A stretch of DNA of 64,000 nucleotides from Massilia soli. GTDB taxonomy: Bacteria > Pseudomonadota > Gammaproteobacteria > Burkholderiales > Burkholderiaceae_D. Below, piece after piece: positions 2,301 through 10,353 of the stretch. The notes below the pieces were generated by a model, which did no database searches, was not told where the DNA came from, and saw nothing but the letters and a program-made list of their open reading frames with translations. How positions within the stretch are numbered: the first letter of the stretch is position 1; each line of letters begins with the position of its first letter. The stretch spans positions 310,001 to 374,000 of the forward strand of contig NZ_JAFBIL020000005.1 in assembly GCF_016809835.1 (NCBI RefSeq), read 5' to 3'. The position numbers were made by a program, and so were the translations under genes.

Positions 2301-3191
2301 TTAAACGATGCCAGGACGCAACGGCACGAAGTGGCACGCTTCCAACGTGTCGCTGGTCCATTCTGCCTTGCCGGTGCGGGTAATCAATTGCAGGTGCTGT
2401 GTCTGCGCACCCACCGGGGCAACCAGGCGTCCGCCGATTGTCAGTTGTTCAAGCAGCGCCTGCGGCACCGCGAGACCGGCCGCCGCGAGGATGATGCCGT
2501 CGAACGGGGCAGCCTGCGGCAGGCCAAGCATACCATCTCCGTAATGCAAACGCAGGTTTGCAATACGCAACGGACGCAAATTGGCCTTGGCCAGCTCGTG
2601 CAGCGGCTTGATCCGCTCGATCGAAAACACGTTGCGCGCCACGCAAGAGAGCACCGCAGCCTGGTAGCCGCAGCCAGTGCCGATCTCGAGCACGTTGTTA
2701 AGTTGACCACCGTTGCGCATCACTTCGATCATGCGCGCGACGATGTATGGCTGGGAAATGGTCTGGTGATGCCCGATCGGCAGCGAGGCGTCGATATACG
2801 CCTGGGCCGACAGCGCCGGCTCGATGAAGCCATGGCGCGGCACGGTATTGAGCGCGGCCAGCACCACCTGGTCCTGGACGCCCTGGCGCGCGACCCGCTG
2901 TACCATCTGGTTGCGGATCGCATCCGAAATCATCATGTCGGCGCGCGGCGCGGCCACCGGAACCGGTTGCACGCGCTGGGCGAAGCCCTGCACGGGCGCG
3001 GCGCCGGAACGAACCGGCGTTGCAACCCGAGCAACAAAAGCTCCTTGCACCGCGGTATGCGCGGCATTGCGTGTCGCCGTCTGCGGCGTGGCCACGCGGA
3101 TCGGCTGGCTGGACGGCACGCCGCCTGGCTTGGCGTTGCTGCCCGTTACCGAGGACAGCGGCAAGGGGAAATTGCTGCGCTTGTCGTTCAT
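2301..3191 (-). CDS. pcm: protein-L-isoaspartate O-methyltransferase with N-terminal extension
   Basis: Repairs isoaspartyl residues in aged proteins by S-adenosylmethionine-dependent methylation. The SAM-binding motif I is [15 protein letters not shown], followed by NVFSIERI and a GDGMLGLP motif. The PIMT core starts near residue 87 ([15 protein letters not shown]) and is of normal length. About 85 residues of Ala/Pro/Val-rich, low-complexity sequence precede it, making the protein 296 residues against roughly 210-220 for a standard Pcm. The chosen ATG overlaps the surE stop codon as ATGA, which supports translational coupling and the long form. Neighbours surE, nlpD and rpoS form the classical stress-survival group. 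Confidence 0.93.
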
Positions 3192-3925
3192 GCGAGTCCC
3201 TTGGCCAGCAAATCGAGCTGGAGCTTGTGGGTGAGGTCGATTTGCAAGGGAGTGATCGACACCTGTCCCTGGCTGGTCGCGTGGAAGTCGGTGCCTTCGC
3301 CGGCGTCGCGGGTCGCGCCCGGCGGCCCGATCCAGAAGATCTCGCGCCCGCGCGGGTCGAGCGCGCGGATCACGGCTTCGGCCTGGTGGCGGCGCCCGAG
3401 GCGGGTCGCAGTGATCGTGGTCAGCTGCTCGTACGGCAGGTTCGGGATATTTACGTTCAGCAGGTAAGGCGACGGCAGTTCGTCGAAGCGGCGCATCACC
3501 AGGTCGCGCGCAACCCTGGCGGCGGCGTCGATGTTGCCCCAGCCGTAGTCGACTTGCGAAAAAGCGATCGCCGGGATGCCGAACAGGAAGCCTTCGGTGG
3601 CGGCGGCCACGGTGCCCGAATACAGGGTGTCGTCCCCCATGTTCTGGCCGTTGTTGATGCCGGAAACGATCAGGTCCGGCCGGTAGTCGAGCATGCCGGT
3701 CAGCGCGATGTGGACGCAGTCGGTCGGCGTGCCGTTGACGAAATAAAAGCCGTTGGCGGCCTTGGTCACCGACAGCGGACGGTCGAGCGACAGCGAGTTG
3801 GACGCGCCCGAGCGGTTGCTGTCGGGCGCCACCACCACGATGTCGGCCACCGATGCCAGTGCATCGGCCAATGCATTGATGCCGGGGGCGAGATAGCCGT
3901 CGTCGTTACTGATTAAGATTCGCAT
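3188..3925 (-). CDS. surE: 5'/3'-nucleotidase SurE
   Basis: Metal-dependent nucleoside monophosphate phosphatase of 245 residues, linked in the family to stationary-phase survival. The N-terminal [16 protein letters not shown] carries the two metal-binding aspartates, and [17 protein letters not shown] is the second signature with the binding-loop serine/asparagine. The [19 protein letters not shown] block gives the remaining metal-site asparagine. The stop codon overlaps the pcm start by four bases, so surE and pcm are almost certainly co-transcribed. Confidence 0.97.
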
Positions 3926-3995: not shown

Positions 3996-6440
3996 TTATT
4001 CTGCGGCGACCCTCCTTCCGCCCGCGGCGTGGTTCAGGTGGGCGTCGAGCAGAGCCACCTCATCTTGTACGAACGACAGCAAGGCGTCCTTGTCGCCGTC
4101 GCGCGTGTAGACCTTGCGGATCATGGCCACGCCGCGCTTTCTGAGGGGATGGGCGACGCTCGGGCGCAGCACCGACTTGCGCAGGCTGTCGGCCAGCTCG
4201 CGCGCTTCGCCGTCGCTGCGGCTGTCGATCAGCTGCTGCAGCTGCTCCAGCTTTTCATTGAGCGACTGCATCAGCTGCTCGCTGGCATGGTCGCGCTCTT
4301 GCGGACCGGCCGCGGGGTAATGCAACAGTCGGTGCGACTCGTGCGGCCCGGACACCATCGCGCGCGGCGCCAGCTGCCGGTCGGCCCGGTGCGCGACCGC
4401 GTCTTCGAGCCGGCGCGCGTCGAGCGTGTGCCCCTGTTCGCTGAGCGTTTTTGCCAGCATTTTCTTGCTGTGCAAAGTCTGCGGGCTGTCGGCGCCGTAC
4501 ATGCGCTCCTGGGTGTCCACCACGCGCTGCTGCAGCACACAGGCAGCATCGAGTTCGCCCTGCATACCCAGCGTCGTTGCCAGGCTCAGCTGAATGCTGA
4601 GGGTTTCCGGATGTTCGGAGCCGAGGTTGCGCTCGCGCGTACGCGCCAATTCTTCCTGCAGCGCGCGCACCGCCGGAATATCGCCCAGCCCGGCAAGGAT
4701 TTCAGCCAGGATCTCGCGCGCCTTCACCGTTGACGGATGGTCCGCCCCGGCATGGCGCTCGCGCGCCGCGACCACGCCCTGCTGCAGCTTTTTGGCGTTG
4801 GCCATGTCGCCGAGGTCCGACAGCACGATCGCCAGCTGTTGCGCGCAGCGCAAGGTGTCGTCGTGTTCATTGCCGAGCAGGCGCTGGCGTCCGTCAAGCA
4901 CCAGCTCAAACAGCATCCGCGCACGGCTGAACTCGCGCTGGCGCGCCAGCGTCTGCGCCTGGCCCGCATAGCTGTTCAGTGTCAGCAAGTGGTCGTTGCC
5001 GAACCGGTCTTCGCAGATCCGCGTGATGGCCGCGTGCAGCGCAAGCGCTTCGTCGAACTCGCCCAGCTGAGCCAGGGTCGAAGCGAGACCGGAGCGCGCC
5101 GCCAGGGTTTCGGGATGTTCTTCCCCAAGCAGCCGCTGGCAGTCGCGCGCCAGCATCGCGTACAGCTCGCGGGCATCATCGAGCTTGCCGGAATCGCGCA
5201 GCAGCCGCGCCAGCTTGCTGCAGCCGGCGCGGGTATCCGGATCGTCGTTGCCCAGCATGCGCTGGCGGATCGACAGGCTCTCTTCCAGACACTCGCGCGC
5301 CTGCACTTCCCTGCCATTGGCGCGATACAGGTCGCCGAGTTCGGCCAGGTCGCGCGCCAGCGGCAGCAGCGCCGGACCGGACAGCGCATCGCCGGCCTGC
5401 GCACGCGCCGCCGCAATCGTGCCGAGCAGCGCGATTTCGCTGCGCGACTGCCACGGAAAACGGTCGTGCTCCATCCAGTCAAGCAGCGTGTCGAAGGTGC
5501 GTTCGAGCGAGAAGCGGTCGACGCCATGGCCGCGCAGATGCGACAGCGGCGCCCCGCCCGACATGGCCGCGGTCTGCTGCAGCTGGACTTCGTCAAGGTA
5601 GCTGTCGAGCGACAGCTGCGACAAGCCGTACGACTGCGCCAGCAGGCGTTCGAGCACTGGCTGATAGCCGGTGCTGCCGCGCAGCGGGTCGCCGCGCCGC
5701 CACTGCATGCGGCGTTCGCAGTCGGCGCTGTCGACCAGCGCGGGCAGCGGATACACCATCAGTGGCCGCTGCGCTTCTTCGTGGCTGCAACGGTAATCGA
5801 TGGCGCGGTTGACCACGCCGGCCAGCCCTTCCAGGCTGCGCTGGTTGGGTGTGAACAAGCCCACCAGCTTGCGCGGCAACAGCGCCGTACAGATGCTGAC
5901 GGCCGCCGAGCGCCCGCTGCGCGCATCGATCAGCACATGGCGAAACCTGCTCGACATGAAATCGCCGAAACTGCGGAACAGCGCAGGGCAAGCGGCAAAC
6001 AGGCTGTCCCAGTCCATCGCATGGGCGCGCTCGCCATAGCTGTCGTCAAACCGCCCGGCGCGCATCAGGTAAAGCGGGCGGCTTTCGTCAACCCGCTCGA
6101 CGTACAATTCCCAATCAATTGATTCAAGCACATGGCGCGCCATCGCCTCGTCATCGCCGCCGCTGGTGCCGGCCAGCAGCCGCAAGTGATCGCGGCAGGC
6201 CTGGAAATATTCGAGCAGTCCCAGCTTTTCTTCGCGCTGCTCGAAAAAATGGTGCAGTCCGGGCGACTCGGTGTCCCAGTCGATCATCAGCACCGGTACC
6301 GTGGCGTGTTGGCGCCCCGCCAGCAGTACGGCCATGTTCGACAATGCCACGCTTCGCGCTGTTCCGCTCTCGAACGAATAAAACGTGGTCACCTCGCCGG
6401 GAGCGGTTATCGGCGGAAGCGTAATTCGGTTCAGTTCCAT
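3996..6440 (-). CDS. TPR protein with degenerate KGGVGR-type P-loop NTPase domain
   Basis: An 814-residue protein with two parts. Residues 15-210 resemble the MinD/ParA-like ATPases with a KGGVGR variant Walker A (family pattern TFYSF-KGGVGR-TMALAN). Here it reads TFYSF-ESGTAR-SVALSN at residues 19-35, so the P-loop lysine and two glycines are gone, while LMIDWDTESPGLHHFF (51-66), VLIDARSG (169-176) and LFTPNQRSLEGL (195-206) persist. From about residue 360 to 690 there are kinesin-light-chain-type TPR repeats with the recurring pattern LG-x-H/D-P-x-T. The C-terminus is basic. It starts 9 bp after the TIR gene ends, with its GAGGAG ribosome site abutting the TIR stop codon. I infer a sensor/scaffold partner of the TIR effector, possibly without ATPase activity. 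Neither substrate nor trigger is visible. Confidence 0.75.
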   Translation of the reverse strand: MELNRITLPPITAPGEVTTFYSFESGTARSVALSNMAVLLAGRQHATVPVLMIDWDTESPGLHHFFEQREEKLGLLEYFQACRDHLRLLAGTSGGDDEAMARHVLESIDWELYVERVDESRPLYLMRAGRFDDSYGERAHAMDWDSLFAACPALFRSFGDFMSSRFRHVLIDARSGRSAAVSICTALLPRKLVGLFTPNQRSLEGLAGVVNRAIDYRCSHEEAQRPLMVYPLPALVDSADCERRMQWRRGDPLRGSTGYQPVLERLLAQSYGLSQLSLDSYLDEVQLQQTAAMSGGAPLSHLRGHGVDRFSLERTFDTLLDWMEHDRFPWQSRSEIALLGTIAAARAQAGDALSGPALLPLARDLAELGDLYRANGREVQARECLEESLSIRQRMLGNDDPDTRAGCSKLARLLRDSGKLDDARELYAMLARDCQRLLGEEHPETLAARSGLASTLAQLGEFDEALALHAAITRICEDRFGNDHLLTLNSYAGQAQTLARQREFSRARMLFELVLDGRQRLLGNEHDDTLRCAQQLAIVLSDLGDMANAKKLQQGVVAARERHAGADHPSTVKAREILAEILAGLGDIPAVRALQEELARTRERNLGSEHPETLSIQLSLATTLGMQGELDAACVLQQRVVDTQERMYGADSPQTLHSKKMLAKTLSEQGHTLDARRLEDAVAHRADRQLAPRAMVSGPHESHRLLHYPAAGPQERDHASEQLMQSLNEKLEQLQQLIDSRSDGEARELADSLRKSVLRPSVAHPLRKRGVAMIRKVYTRDGDKDALLSFVQDEVALLDAHLNHAAGGRRVAAE

Positions 6441-6449
6441 CAGTGCTCC

Positions 6450-7058
6450 TCATATTTTTGGGAAAGTTATATCCGGAATGTCGCGCCATGCAGGTGGGAC
6501 ATCGGGGAGCACAAATTGGTTGCAATTATGGCTCGCCGGCATATGCTTTTTTTGATACTCGTAGTGGATCGCAATGCGATCGACGATTTTCTTGATGTCG
6601 GGTAGGAAATCCGGGTTCGCCATCAGGTCTCCCGTTGCCATGGTGAAGTTTGAAAAGTCGACATACATGTTCGACTCGGCCACCTGGGGCGGCAGGCGGC
6701 CGGGATGCTTGGTCATGATCACTGGGATGATCAGGCGGCTGGGCAGCTCATACCACTGGCTGCGCTCGGCTTCGAGCAGCTGCATGGCGGCATATTCGCG
6801 CCGCGTGTAAGGGTGCGACTCATACTTGGGCGTATAGATCATGATCATCGCCACGCTCTCGCACATCGCGCGCGCGATGCGGCGGTCGATGTCGTCGCCG
6901 CCGCCGAGCTGTTCGGTGTCGATGAACAGCTCGTTCTCATTGTCGAAGTAGGGTTCCAGATAACAGCGGATGGCATCCGACAGCGCATTCTTGAACCGGT
7001 TCATCAACGCATAGCGGCCATGGGCATAACTGAAGAAACAGCCATAACGGATCGCCAT
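6450..7058 (-). CDS. TIR-domain protein, probable effector
   Basis: A 202-residue protein whose first about 130 residues fit a bacterial TIR domain: strand A with CFFSYAHG (residues 7-14), the BB-loop region LFIDTEQLGGGDDIDRRIARAM (44-65, here in part) and the hydrophobic strand VAMIMIYTPKY. The SHPYTRREY segment follows, whose Glu88 is in the position of the catalytic NADase glutamate of TIR enzymes. The remaining about 70 residues are unassigned. The start at 7058 is chosen because GAGGAGG lies six bases upstream of that ATG; an ATG nine codons earlier has no such site. It is the first gene of a two-gene operon with the TPR/degenerate P-loop protein. NAD cleavage or an anti-phage role is inference from family and context. 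Confidence 0.75.
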   Translation of the reverse strand: MAIRYGCFFSYAHGRYALMNRFKNALSDAIRCYLEPYFDNENELFIDTEQLGGGDDIDRRIARAMCESVAMIMIYTPKYESHPYTRREYAAMQLLEAERSQWYELPSRLIIPVIMTKHPGRLPPQVAESNMYVDFSNFTMATGDLMANPDFLPDIKKIVDRIAIHYEYQKKHMPASHNCNQFVLPDVPPAWRDIPDITFPKI

Positions 7059-7248: not shown

Positions 7249-8223
7249 ATGAAAGCAGTAGTGTGCAAAGCGTGGGGATTGCCCGACAGCCTGACCGTGG
7301 ACGAGGTGCCCGACCTGGTGCCCGGCGCGGGCGAAGTGGTGGTCGACGTCAAGGCGGCGGGCGTGAATTTTCCCGACGTGCTGATCGTGCAGGGCAAGTA
7401 CCAGTTCAAGCCGGCGTTGCCGTTCACGCCAGGCAACGAGCTGTCGGGCGTGCTCCGCGCGGTCGGGCCGGATGTGACCGGATTCAGCGTTGGCGACAAG
7501 GTCATTGCGTTTACGCCGGTCGGCGCGTTTGCGCAGCAGGCACTGGTGCCGGTGCGCGCACTGATGCCGATGCCTCCGGGAATGGACTTCGATACCGCGG
7601 CGGCGATCACCCTGACCTACGGCACTTCCCATCACGCGGTGGCCGATCGCGCCGCGCTGAAGGCAGGCGAGACCATGCTGGTGCTGGGCGCCGCTGGCGG
7701 CGTCGGACTGGCGGCGATCGAGATCGGCAAGGCGCTTGGCGCGCGCGTGATCGCGGCGGCGTCATCGGATGAAAAGCTGGCGGTATGCCGCGCGCACGGC
7801 GCCGACGCGACCATCAATTATGCGACCGAAGATTTGCGCGAGGCGATCAAGGCGGCCACCGATGGCAAGGGGCCGGACGTGATTTACGACCCGGTGGGCG
7901 GGGAGTACGCCGAGCCGGCATTCCGCTCGATCGGATGGCGCGGGCGCTATCTGGTGGTCGGGTTCGCGAACGGCGAGATTCCCAAGCTGCCGCTGAACCT
8001 GGCGCTGCTCAAGGGCGCGTCGCTGGTCGGCGTGTTCTGGGGCGAATTCGCCAAGCGCGAGCCGAAGGCGAACCTGGCGGCGATGCGCGAGATGATGGGC
8101 TGGCTGGCCGAAGGCAAGATCAGGCCGCACATTTCGGGCCGGTACAAGCTGGAAGACACGGCGCAGGCCTTGAACGACATGGCGGCGCGTAAAGTGACCG
8201 GAAAAGTCGTCATCAACCCTTGA
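7249..8223 (+). CDS. NADPH:quinone oxidoreductase, zinc-free MDR family
   Basis: A 324-residue medium-chain dehydrogenase/reductase that should transfer electrons from NADPH to quinones or reduce activated alkenes. The N-terminal GroES-like half has FPDVLIVQGKYQ and LPFTPGNELSG, typical of the quinone reductase branch and without the zinc-ligand cysteines. The Rossmann half has the dinucleotide loop VLGAAGGVGLAAIEIGKALG near residue 150, and GPDVIYDPVGG. The start at 7249 is preceded by a GGAG site; an earlier in-frame ATG has none. It is transcribed divergently from the TIR operon and is probably unrelated to it. Confidence 0.88.
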   Translation: MKAVVCKAWGLPDSLTVDEVPDLVPGAGEVVVDVKAAGVNFPDVLIVQGKYQFKPALPFTPGNELSGVLRAVGPDVTGFSVGDKVIAFTPVGAFAQQALVPVRALMPMPPGMDFDTAAAITLTYGTSHHAVADRAALKAGETMLVLGAAGGVGLAAIEIGKALGARVIAAASSDEKLAVCRAHGADATINYATEDLREAIKAATDGKGPDVIYDPVGGEYAEPAFRSIGWRGRYLVVGFANGEIPKLPLNLALLKGASLVGVFWGEFAKREPKANLAAMREMMGWLAEGKIRPHISGRYKLEDTAQALNDMAARKVTGKVVINP

Positions 8224-8289: not shown

Positions 8290-10353
8290 TCAGGCCGGAT
8301 CGGCGGGTTTGAAAAACGCGATCACGTCGGCTTCCACGCGGGTGCGCTTGAATGGCGGAAGACTCTGCCACACGCGGCGGCCGTACGATTTACTGATGAT
8401 GCGCGGATCGCAGATCATCAGCACGCCACGGTCGGTCTCGTCGCGGATCAGGCGCCCTGCCCCCTGTTTCAGGTTGATGATCGCCTCCGGCAAGGTATGG
8501 TGCATGAACCCGTTCATGCCCTGCTTTTCCATCACGTCGATGCGCGCGGCCAGCACCGGGTCATCGGGCGGCGCGAACGGCATCTTGTCGATGATCACCA
8601 GCGACAGCGCGTCGCCGCGCACGTCGACGCCTTCCCAGAAACTCTGGCTGCCGACCAGCACCGCGTTGCCCGCCGCACGGAACGAGTCGAGCAGTTCGGT
8701 GCGTCCGCGCTCGCCCTGCACAAACAGTGGGAAATCGAGGCCGCGCGCGGCGAACTCGGTGCGCAGCCGTTCCGCCACATGCTTGACCGCGCGAATCGTC
8801 GTGCACAGGAAAAAGGTGCGCCCGCCGGCCGCCTCGATCACCGGCAGCGCCGCATCGACCACCGCATCGGTGTAGCCGAACGCGTTCGGCTCCGGCAGTC
8901 CGCTCGGCACGTACAGTAATCCTTGCTGCTCGTAATTGAACGGGCTTGGCCAGTTCTTGGCCTCTTCGCCTTCCAGGCCCATCTGCGCCGAAAAGTGCTT
9001 GAAGTCATTCTTGACGGCTAAGGTTGCCGACGTAAAGATCCAGCTGCGCGGCGTGCCTTCGCGCTGGTTCGAGAAGATCGGCGCGATCGACAGCGGCGTT
9101 TTGTGCAGCTGCAGCGCGGACGAGAACGCCTCGACCCACAACACCGCCTGGTCGCCCTCGACCACCTTGCCTTTGGTGTCGGCCTTCCAGGCATCCAGGC
9201 CCGCTGCCAGCTCGACCGCGCGCACGCGGCATTGCTCGATGCTTTCGGCGCGCGCGGCCTGGTCTTCCAGCACATCGATCATCGCCGCCAGCTGCTCCTT
9301 CAAGGTGTCCAGCGCGGGGAAAAAGTCGGACGACGGCATGATCTGCGCCAGCGCCAGGCGCATGATGTCTTGCGGGAAGGCCAGGCGCAGGTCGCGCGCG
9401 GCCTTCTCGACCGCGGTAACGACCTTGGCCCAGTCCGGTCCACCGCGCGCATGGGCCAGGCCTTCGGCCAGCACGTCGCGGCACAGTTCGAGAATCTGCG
9501 AGGTCGACACCGTCTGGCCGAAGAACAAGGTGGCGGTGTCGGGCAGCTGGTGCGCTTCGTCGAAGATGATGGTGTTGGCCGACGGCAGCAGCTCGGCCAC
9601 GCCGGTGTCCTTCAGCGCCACATCGGCGAAGAACAGGTGGTGGTTGACCACCACCACATCGGCCTGCTGGGCCTCGCGGCGCGCCTTCATCACGAAGCAG
9701 TCCTGGTAGTACTGGCACTCGGCGCCCATGCAGGTGTCGCGGGTCGAGGTGACCAGGTTCCAGATGGTGGCGTTCTCGGGCACCTTGGTCAGTTCGGCCT
9801 TGTCGCCCGAACTGGTCATCTTGATGAAGCGCGAAATCTCGCGCAGGTGGCCGACGTCGTCGCGCGAGGTCATGCGCCCGTTGTTGAGCGTGCGTTCGAG
9901 GTGGTAATGGCAGACGTAATTCGAGCGCCCCTTGAGCAGCGCCACCGAGACCGGCGCGCGCAAGGCGGTGCGCACGGTCGGGATATCGCGCAGGAACAGC
10001 TGGTCCTGCAAGTTCTTGGTGCCGGTCGAGACGATGGTCTTGCCGCCCCACAGCAGTGCCGGGACCAGGTAGGCGAAGGTCTTGCCGGTGCCGGTGCCGG
10101 CTTCGGCGATCAGGGTTTTCTGGCCGGCGATGGCTTGCGCGATCGATTTGGCCATCTCGGTTTGCGAGCGGCGCGGGCTGAACGCACCGACCGAAGGCGC
10201 AAGGGGGCCGCCCGCGGAAAACAGGCGGTCGATTTCGGCGTCGTACTTGCCGGCCGGAGCGGCCTCGAAGGCGCCCTGGTCAGGCAGCACGCCGGTCGTG
10301 CCCGGGGCTGGTGTTTGCTCGGTCAAAGTGGATGGCAGGTAATGCGAAGACAA
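8290..10353 (-). CDS. DinG/YoaA-type ATP-dependent DNA helicase
   Basis: A 687-residue XPD-like superfamily 2 helicase that unwinds damaged or structured DNA 5' to 3'. Walker A is AEAGTGTGKT at residues 84-93 and the DEAH box is IIFDEAHQLPD. Four cysteines between them (NYVCHY, DTCMGAEC, QDCF) fit the 4Fe-4S cluster of this family. C-terminal motifs include VLVGSQSFWEGVDVRG (motif V) and QGAGRLIRDETDRG (motif VI). Length and the short N-terminus without an exonuclease domain fit YoaA better than long DinG proteins of Firmicutes. The start lies 2 bp after the stop of the upstream DUF465 gene. Confidence 0.9.
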   Translation of the reverse strand: MSSHYLPSTLTEQTPAPGTTGVLPDQGAFEAAPAGKYDAEIDRLFSAGGPLAPSVGAFSPRRSQTEMAKSIAQAIAGQKTLIAEAGTGTGKTFAYLVPALLWGGKTIVSTGTKNLQDQLFLRDIPTVRTALRAPVSVALLKGRSNYVCHYHLERTLNNGRMTSRDDVGHLREISRFIKMTSSGDKAELTKVPENATIWNLVTSTRDTCMGAECQYYQDCFVMKARREAQQADVVVVNHHLFFADVALKDTGVAELLPSANTIIFDEAHQLPDTATLFFGQTVSTSQILELCRDVLAEGLAHARGGPDWAKVVTAVEKAARDLRLAFPQDIMRLALAQIMPSSDFFPALDTLKEQLAAMIDVLEDQAARAESIEQCRVRAVELAAGLDAWKADTKGKVVEGDQAVLWVEAFSSALQLHKTPLSIAPIFSNQREGTPRSWIFTSATLAVKNDFKHFSAQMGLEGEEAKNWPSPFNYEQQGLLYVPSGLPEPNAFGYTDAVVDAALPVIEAAGGRTFFLCTTIRAVKHVAERLRTEFAARGLDFPLFVQGERGRTELLDSFRAAGNAVLVGSQSFWEGVDVRGDALSLVIIDKMPFAPPDDPVLAARIDVMEKQGMNGFMHHTLPEAIINLKQGAGRLIRDETDRGVLMICDPRIISKSYGRRVWQSLPPFKRTRVEADVIAFFKPADPA

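Follow-up and report, generated by a model that had tools for sequence, protein, structure and literature searches.

The gene pair described here lies in a 64,000-nucleotide stretch of Massilia soli DNA (the window; contig NZ_JAFBIL020000005.1, positions 310,001 to 374,000 of the forward strand) and encodes a TIR-domain protein and a larger partner, the latter combining a MinD/ParA-like domain with tetratricopeptide repeats (TPRs). The pair is most likely a two-gene module of the Oxalobacteraceae that is vertically inherited. Far back in its history, the Massilia line lost the nucleotide-binding P-loop of the partner; the protein is nonetheless kept under selection, which suggests a lasting role as a partner or scaffold and not a broken gene. 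The preferred reading, tentative at a probability of roughly 45%, is that an FxsC-like TIR protein works with a pseudo-nucleoside triphosphatase (pseudo-NTPase) hub of the MinD/ParA fold and performs a cleavage of the nicotinamide adenine dinucleotide (NAD) type on cue. It draws on the constant pairing and place of the two genes, their joint absence, a P-loop loss that goes with purifying selection, the predicted fold of the partner, and the apparent dispensability of its TPRs.

Both reading frames are open and lie on the minus strand. The TIR gene (6450..7058) encodes 202 residues and starts with the ATG at 7058, immediately upstream of which stands AGAGGAGG. The partner gene (3996..6440) encodes 814 residues: the MinD/ParA-fold pseudo-NTPase domain, kinesin-light-chain (KLC)-type TPRs, and a C-terminal part. 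The gap between the TIR stop codon and the partner ATG measures 9 nt (6441..6449), in agreement with the preliminary description of this locus, and a GAGGAG overlaps the stop codon ahead of the partner start. Relatives were taken from named genomes: 142 were found and the best 80 kept as loci, which by title belong to Massilia, Telluria, Duganella, Rugamonas, Pseudoduganella, Janthinobacterium, one 'Herbaspirillum', and some metagenome bins. Two loci with the TIR gene cut by a contig end (L122 and L125) were dropped; L071 (genome G005, interrupted frames) and L072 (TIR gene on another contig) were left out of alignments A1 and A2, L059 was left out of A2, and alignment A3 consists of 55 chosen sequences. 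TIR and partner stand together and in the same order in 79 of the 79 loci where both are readable, with 7–24 nt (median 9) between stop and start and a recognizable P-loop region in each partner; the arrangement is not a chance one.

The N-terminal 360 residues of the partner (5361..6440, minus strand) have, as judged by an AlphaFold2 model, a fold like that of MinD and ParA. The model has a mean predicted local distance difference test score (pLDDT) of 85.7 and a predicted template modeling score of 0.87, and its Foldseek matches are ParA (3ea0, E 3.2e-8), MinD (1hyq and 1g3q; E 2.2e-7), FlhG (4rz3), McdA (6non), and Soj. The partner matches the NCBIfam family AAA_KGGVGR (NF047398) with E=4.6e-23 and 82.5 bits, under the cut-off of 90. 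The TPRs span approximately residues 364–703 (4332..5351, minus strand) and are recognized by Pfam TPR_12 and TPR_10, in seven stretches each, and by PDB matches to KLC1, KLC2, and KLC-like chains; the domain make-up given in the preliminary description is thus borne out. DUF4404 and DUF7017 match weakly, below cut-off, and no NB-ARC, NACHT, or other STAND domain is matched in Pfam at E up to 1. Among nine partners scanned, Pfam TPRs are present in three (L151, L127, and L088), and the other six, all Massilia-type (L093, L108, L113, L119, L121, and L123), match no Pfam family at E 0.01. The constant core is hence the TIR protein plus the MinD-like domain, to which TPRs are added. Judged from these sequences, the TPRs are dispensable, and the proposal that they form an essential sensor or scaffold finds no footing. 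The length of the partner ranges from 402 to 950 residues among 74 long closed frames.

The P-loop of the window partner reads ESGTAR at residues 24–29 (6354..6371, minus strand), where most intact relatives have KGGTGR. The loss of the lysine is exactly as first described, as are the flanking motifs TFYSF, SVALSN, and LMIDWDTESPGL. Counted over 79 partners—78 loci and the window—the lysine is present in 20 (KGG[TSA]GR) and lost in 59. The family loop had been given as KGGVGR; a lysine-bearing form does exist, but the intact copies read KGGTGR (18), KGGSGR (1), and KGGAGR (1), and none KGGVGR. They belong to Duganella, Rugamonas, Janthinobacterium, and P. namucuonensis. The last position of the loop is Arg in 76 of the 79. 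In the 53 Massilia-type partners, residue 24 is Glu (39) or Asp (14) and never Lys; residues 25–28 vary, and Arg29, Asp54, and Asp56 are unvarying. All 53 have lost Asp179 and had Gly28 replaced; in addition, Gly25 is replaced in 35 and Asp172 in 14 (by Ala). Residue 179 is Ala in the window (5904..5906, minus strand) and Asp in all 20 partners with an intact P-loop. Further loops without lysine are RGGAGC in P. rivuli, P. ginsengisoli, and one metagenome bin, QEGCGR in P. violacea, and REAASR in another metagenome bin; outside the Massilia type, Asp179 is present in three of the five rows without lysine.

A quick, unrooted tree of 78 rows (without L095), built from the TIR protein and the partner N-domain after removal of the P-loop columns, requires at least four changes of P-loop state, three of them forced by starred branches; its long branches are L124, L150, L128, and L151. 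Elsewhere in the phylum (299 genomes), 29 of the 30 best AAA_KGGVGR loci keep the lysine, all 30 over the cut-off and one of them from this family; below the cut-off, the model hits almost all genomes and each of the 14 controls. Because 29 of these 30 best loci keep it, loss of the lysine is taken as derived. The older form of the partner is most likely that with the KGG[TSA]GR loop, and the nucleotide-binding residues most likely disappeared from the Massilia/Telluria line and, once more, from some Pseudoduganella-type lineages, with the rest of the fold kept. As read from the alignments, the loss is a shared and stable state of the Massilia-type line.

The ratio of nonsynonymous to synonymous substitution rates (dN/dS) was obtained from Nei-Gojobori counts with a purpose-made script on 19 hand-chosen pairs that are partly non-independent (one triple). 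For partner residues 1–240 it is 0.035–0.317 in 13 degenerate pairs and 0.061–0.105 in six intact pairs; over all 19 pairs it is 0.027–0.259 for the TIR protein and 0.032–0.696 for the partner after residue 360. Close homologues with an intact loop, which the preliminary description had treated as a sign of simple decay, do exist (20 of the 79). However, simple decay does not follow, since the degenerate loop is common to 50-odd Massilia-type loci and dN/dS is well below 1. Local decay of the window copy is ruled out by the shared degenerate loop, the tree, and dN/dS.

The TIR protein passes the Pfam gathering score for TIR_2 (PF13676; E=2.7e-10, 41.2 bits versus 28). Its residue 88, within the context YTRREY, is the glutamate at the usual catalytic position to which attention had been drawn earlier, and it is kept in 79 of 79 loci. 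Across the 79 rows 66 columns are invariant, including L51 and G53–D56 of the BB-loop region. The AlphaFold2 model (pLDDT 64.1) is weaker than that of the partner N-domain. Its top Foldseek matches are the TIR domains of SPARTA, IL-1RAPL2, and SARM1, only SPARTA at E <0.001; from rank 6 on, the list also contains unrelated folds. Against PDB sequences, the TIR profile matches only a TetR regulator (E 0.62) and the TIR protein 4c7m (E 0.88); in the latter, weak match, E88 is aligned to a Glu. According to PMC7075850, the glutamate is present in >70% of TIR domains and is not diagnostic of an enzyme, so that on its own it argues weakly for enzymatic activity.

The pair occupies a recurrent chromosomal site. 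In the window, surE (3188..3925, minus strand; NCBIfam) lies 70 nt downstream of the partner, with pcm, nlpD, and rpoS next in line; on its opposite side, the site is bounded by a divergent gene for a PIG3-type quinone oxidoreductase, Qor (7249..8223, plus strand; 265.2 bits versus a cut-off of 296.8). surE follows the partner in 19 of the first 20 loci fetched, L059 ending at a contig edge. Over the 80 named loci, it is found downstream on the same strand after an ended partner frame in 73, at a distance of <300 nt in 67, 321–625 nt in four, and 2.7 and 3.1 kb in L092 and L095. The seven loci in which surE was not seen comprise six cut by contig ends and L124, with 1,580 nt devoid of surE. 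A divergent Qor lies ≤600 nt upstream of the TIR gene in 56 of the 80. Empty sites were checked in 13 of 16 same-family genomes without the pair, and in six of these 13 (L200, L201, L202, L204, L206, and L208) Qor stands directly beside surE, which suggests that the pair was inserted at that site.

The TIR gene is found in 21 of 100 relatives: every one of the 17 genomes from the window's genus (in G001 and G005 as pieces) plus a single genome in each of four further genera. Among 245 family genomes there are 74 with a match, three weakly (E 1e-4 to 8e-4) and the other 71 in five genera; in two genera counted apart, it is present in 57 of 62 and 74 of 74 genomes (G718 only a piece). Four of 398 phylum genomes match, strongly only the two of this family. 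No TIR match at E 1e-3 occurs in 72,556 plasmid and 50,697 phage records; the partner N-domain matches ten plasmid records, none over 66% of its length. In five genomes without the TIR gene, all of one genus, the partner was sought within 8 kb around surE and is also missing at the site: L251 has Qor beside surE, L252, L254, and L255 are without Qor too, and L253 bears a stretch matching partner residues 488–596 only, a TPR remnant. As the last four may reflect few events, this joint absence supports, but does not prove, that the pair behaves as a unit. The co-occurrence proposed as a check holds, and the gene pair is not essential. A recent mobile origin is ruled out by the plasmid and phage scans together with the Qor–surE sites of pair-less relatives.

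In the mechanism proposed here, TIR protein and partner would be co-produced and form a complex. The pseudo-MinD domain would serve as a hub that is fixed and does not switch, keeping the TIR protein in place or assembling it, and the variable C-terminal parts—TPRs in many partners, none in some—may bring in the cue. On this cue, TIR domains would cluster and then cleave NAD or a related nucleotide. The place ahead of surE-pcm-nlpD-rpoS suggests a role in slow-growth or stress physiology, possibly including defense. Several points weigh against this picture. Binding of the two proteins and the enzymatic activity of the TIR protein are inferred, vertical inheritance is deduced from place and range, and the link to stationary phase is drawn from gene order. 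Asp179 is retained in three of 58 rows without lysine, and the association of K24 with D179 comes down to three pairs, too few events to reach significance; L128, a long branch without lysine, falls on the intact side of the quick tree when midpoint-rooted. Mean pairwise identity over residues 1–240 is 0.65 in the degenerate versus 0.79 in the intact group (0.80 versus 0.87 for the TIR protein); this greater divergence indicates that constraint on the degenerate domain is somewhat relaxed, though not absent. Finally, one promoter-like site was found between partner and surE versus 0.5 expected, which leaves co-transcription of the pair with surE unproven.

The pair resembles several known systems. 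Thoeris (ThsA/ThsB) likewise couples a TIR protein with a partner. Membership is ruled out by the scores: the ThsB model of PADLOC matches the window TIR protein at E=0.035, the type III Thoeris ThcB4 model of NCBIfam reaches 21.4 of 220 bits over 49 residues, and no ThsA is named among the ten neighbors scanned. The best named NCBIfam families for the two proteins are FxsC_Nterm and FxSxx_TPR, from the FxSxx-COOH system (NF040588 and NF040586), which also combines a TIR-like protein with one that carries a KGGVGR-type domain and TPRs; the window pair differs in having no NB-ARC/STAND match and in the lost P-loop lysine. Membership in FxSxx-COOH is ruled out as well, FxsC, FxsT, and FxsB all remaining under their cut-offs: FxsC reaches 37.2 of 130 bits in the window TIR protein and, across 60 genomes, matches in 22 with none over the cut-off (0 of 14 controls); the FxsT-type model reaches 204 of 300 bits in the partner; and the radical SAM enzyme FxsB exceeds its cut-off in 0 of 60 genomes, with weak matches in 57 of 60 and in 11 of 14 controls. 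The best FxsB-like match in the window's own genome has E=1.2e-9 over positions 4–126 of 363. Two genomes of the window's genus (G009 and G013; L163 and L164) carry, at sites other than the TIR locus, nearly full-length FxsB-like matches of 268.9 and 229.5 of 370 bits.

The KGGVGR-motif variant AAA ATPase domain (NF047398) is the same domain by sequence and predicted fold; the window partner differs by its score under 90 bits and by ESGTAR in place of KGGVGR, the signature lysine being replaced by E24. Inactive MinD/ParA-like domains linked with TPR- and TIR-bearing proteins have already been predicted in VMAP and peptide-processing conflict systems (Kaur et al. 2020, PMC7159879), which makes the idea of an inactive MinD-like partner less novel. 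The systems covered there are vWA-MoxR ternary or actinobacterial peptide systems, whereas the pair described here stands alone, is found in Betaproteobacteria, and has both intact and degenerate versions at a single locus. No paper on this gene pair was found in the open-licence literature, which misses most subscription papers. On a plasmid of Sinorhizobium chiapasense (L243, 4995–7199), a relative of the partner N-domain and a TIR_2 domain are joined in one protein, with other TIR genes nearby. On plasmids of Massilia forsythiae (L244, 3434–5854) and Rhizobium phaseoli (L245, 4486–6863), a KGGVGR-like gene annotated 'ParA family' directly follows a gene annotated as an MqsA-family antitoxin; the two genes are 3 nt apart on one plasmid and overlap by 1 nt on the other, and they may be a two-gene module of their own.

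Two alternatives are about equally possible, each well behind the preferred reading. According to the first, the pair is an anti-phage conflict system in which the partner detects an invader and then lets the TIR protein deplete NAD. Bacterial TIR proteins are often defense effectors. The variable length of the partner (402–950 residues) and the Sinorhizobium plasmid protein that joins an N-domain relative to a TIR domain near other TIR genes point the same way, as does PMC7159879, which counts FxSxx-type systems with TIR and MinD/ParA-like parts among predicted conflict systems. However, most loci share a single chromosomal site, plasmid and phage records are free of TIR matches at E 1e-3, the neighbors in the window are housekeeping genes, and the TIR protein keeps its 66 invariant columns. 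PADLOC gives no convincing model either, with a best E of 0.011 for the TIR protein and one 55-residue match at E 2.5e-07 for the partner. Synteny, housekeeping neighbors, and the lack of a plasmid or phage TIR match argue against an ordinary mobile defense island, and enrichment of defense genes, suggested as a further check, is not seen among the ten window neighbors scanned. Their PADLOC matches—RpoS, isoaspartate methyltransferase, a YoaA-type helicase, and a PP2C phosphatase—look generic, and a defense island in the window was rejected.

According to the second alternative, the TIR protein is a non-enzymatic assembly module, and the pair, together with surE-pcm-nlpD-rpoS, serves stationary-phase or envelope physiology as a structural or regulatory complex. 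The conserved place beside this cluster is in line with it, although gene order is weak evidence for function. Trp and Cys often directly precede the catalytic glutamate of TIR domains; here, these are mostly Tyr and Thr. Also in its favor, the glutamate is common in TIR proteins without reported activity (PMC7075850). On the other hand, the glutamate together with L51 and G53–D56 of the BB-loop region is invariant in 79 of 79 loci.

A bolder reading is somewhat more doubtful still: that a TIR module was domesticated in the Oxalobacteraceae, stands at the head of surE-pcm-nlpD-rpoS, and turns NAD over during stationary phase, its regulator having several times independently abandoned the MinD-type nucleotide switch and become a pseudo-NTPase; in the main line, an acidic residue would have become fixed where the P-loop lysine had been. 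That the degenerate partner still binds or hydrolyzes nucleotide through other residues is improbable: R29, D54, and D56 are indeed invariant in 53 of 53 Massilia-type rows, but none of these rows retains the signature lysine, D179, or Gly28, Gly25 and D172 being replaced in the 35 and 14 mentioned, and an acidic residue at the lysine position would be expected to repel phosphates. Least probable, and already contradicted, is that the partner is a decaying pseudogene, for which speak the lost P-loop, a frame stopping after 66 residues in L095 (one of 75 partner frames ending on their contig), a mean column entropy of 1.16 in 53 degenerate versus 0.61 in 20 intact rows, and a dN/dS of the TPR part of up to 0.46 in one degenerate pair (yet 0.70 in an intact one), but against which stand the other 74 frames, long and open, and a dN/dS over residues 1–240 that does not exceed 0.317 in any of the 19 chosen pairs. 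In L095 itself, from approximately position 8615, similarity continues beyond the end of the Massilia frame, pointing to a broken copy or an assembly error.

The ten window neighbors scanned include rpoS, nlpD, pcm, surE, the quinone oxidoreductase gene, and yoaA. The pcm protein (2301–3191) has 86 residues ahead of its NCBIfam methyltransferase match, through either start-codon choice or an extension. The DinG-like gene at 8290–10353 is the repair helicase gene yoaA (NCBIfam, 882.6 bits, cut-off 680), and its PADLOC match to a type IV CRISPR DinG looks generic. Opposite the partner gene, the plus strand holds long open frames of 234 and 461 residues (4029–6122), probably an effect of high G+C. 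Between 16001 and 18000, G+C falls to 0.534, compared with 0.60–0.68 across most of the window, a possible insertion.

Overall, the observation of the preliminary description stands and its interpretation is partly supported, its TPR-sensor and defense readings only in part. What is new here is that a single locus shows the passage from the intact to the degenerate state, and that its setting is linked to rpoS. The locus offers a natural series that spans many species: next to one TIR protein, the MinD-type loop of the partner goes from intact to degenerate. This series lets one ask directly whether such a TIR protein needs a nucleotide-driven switch and whether pseudo-NTPases of the MinD fold act as fixed scaffolds. 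In addition, it presents a TIR system that behaves as a widespread gene pair at a fixed place, unlike a mobile defense cassette.

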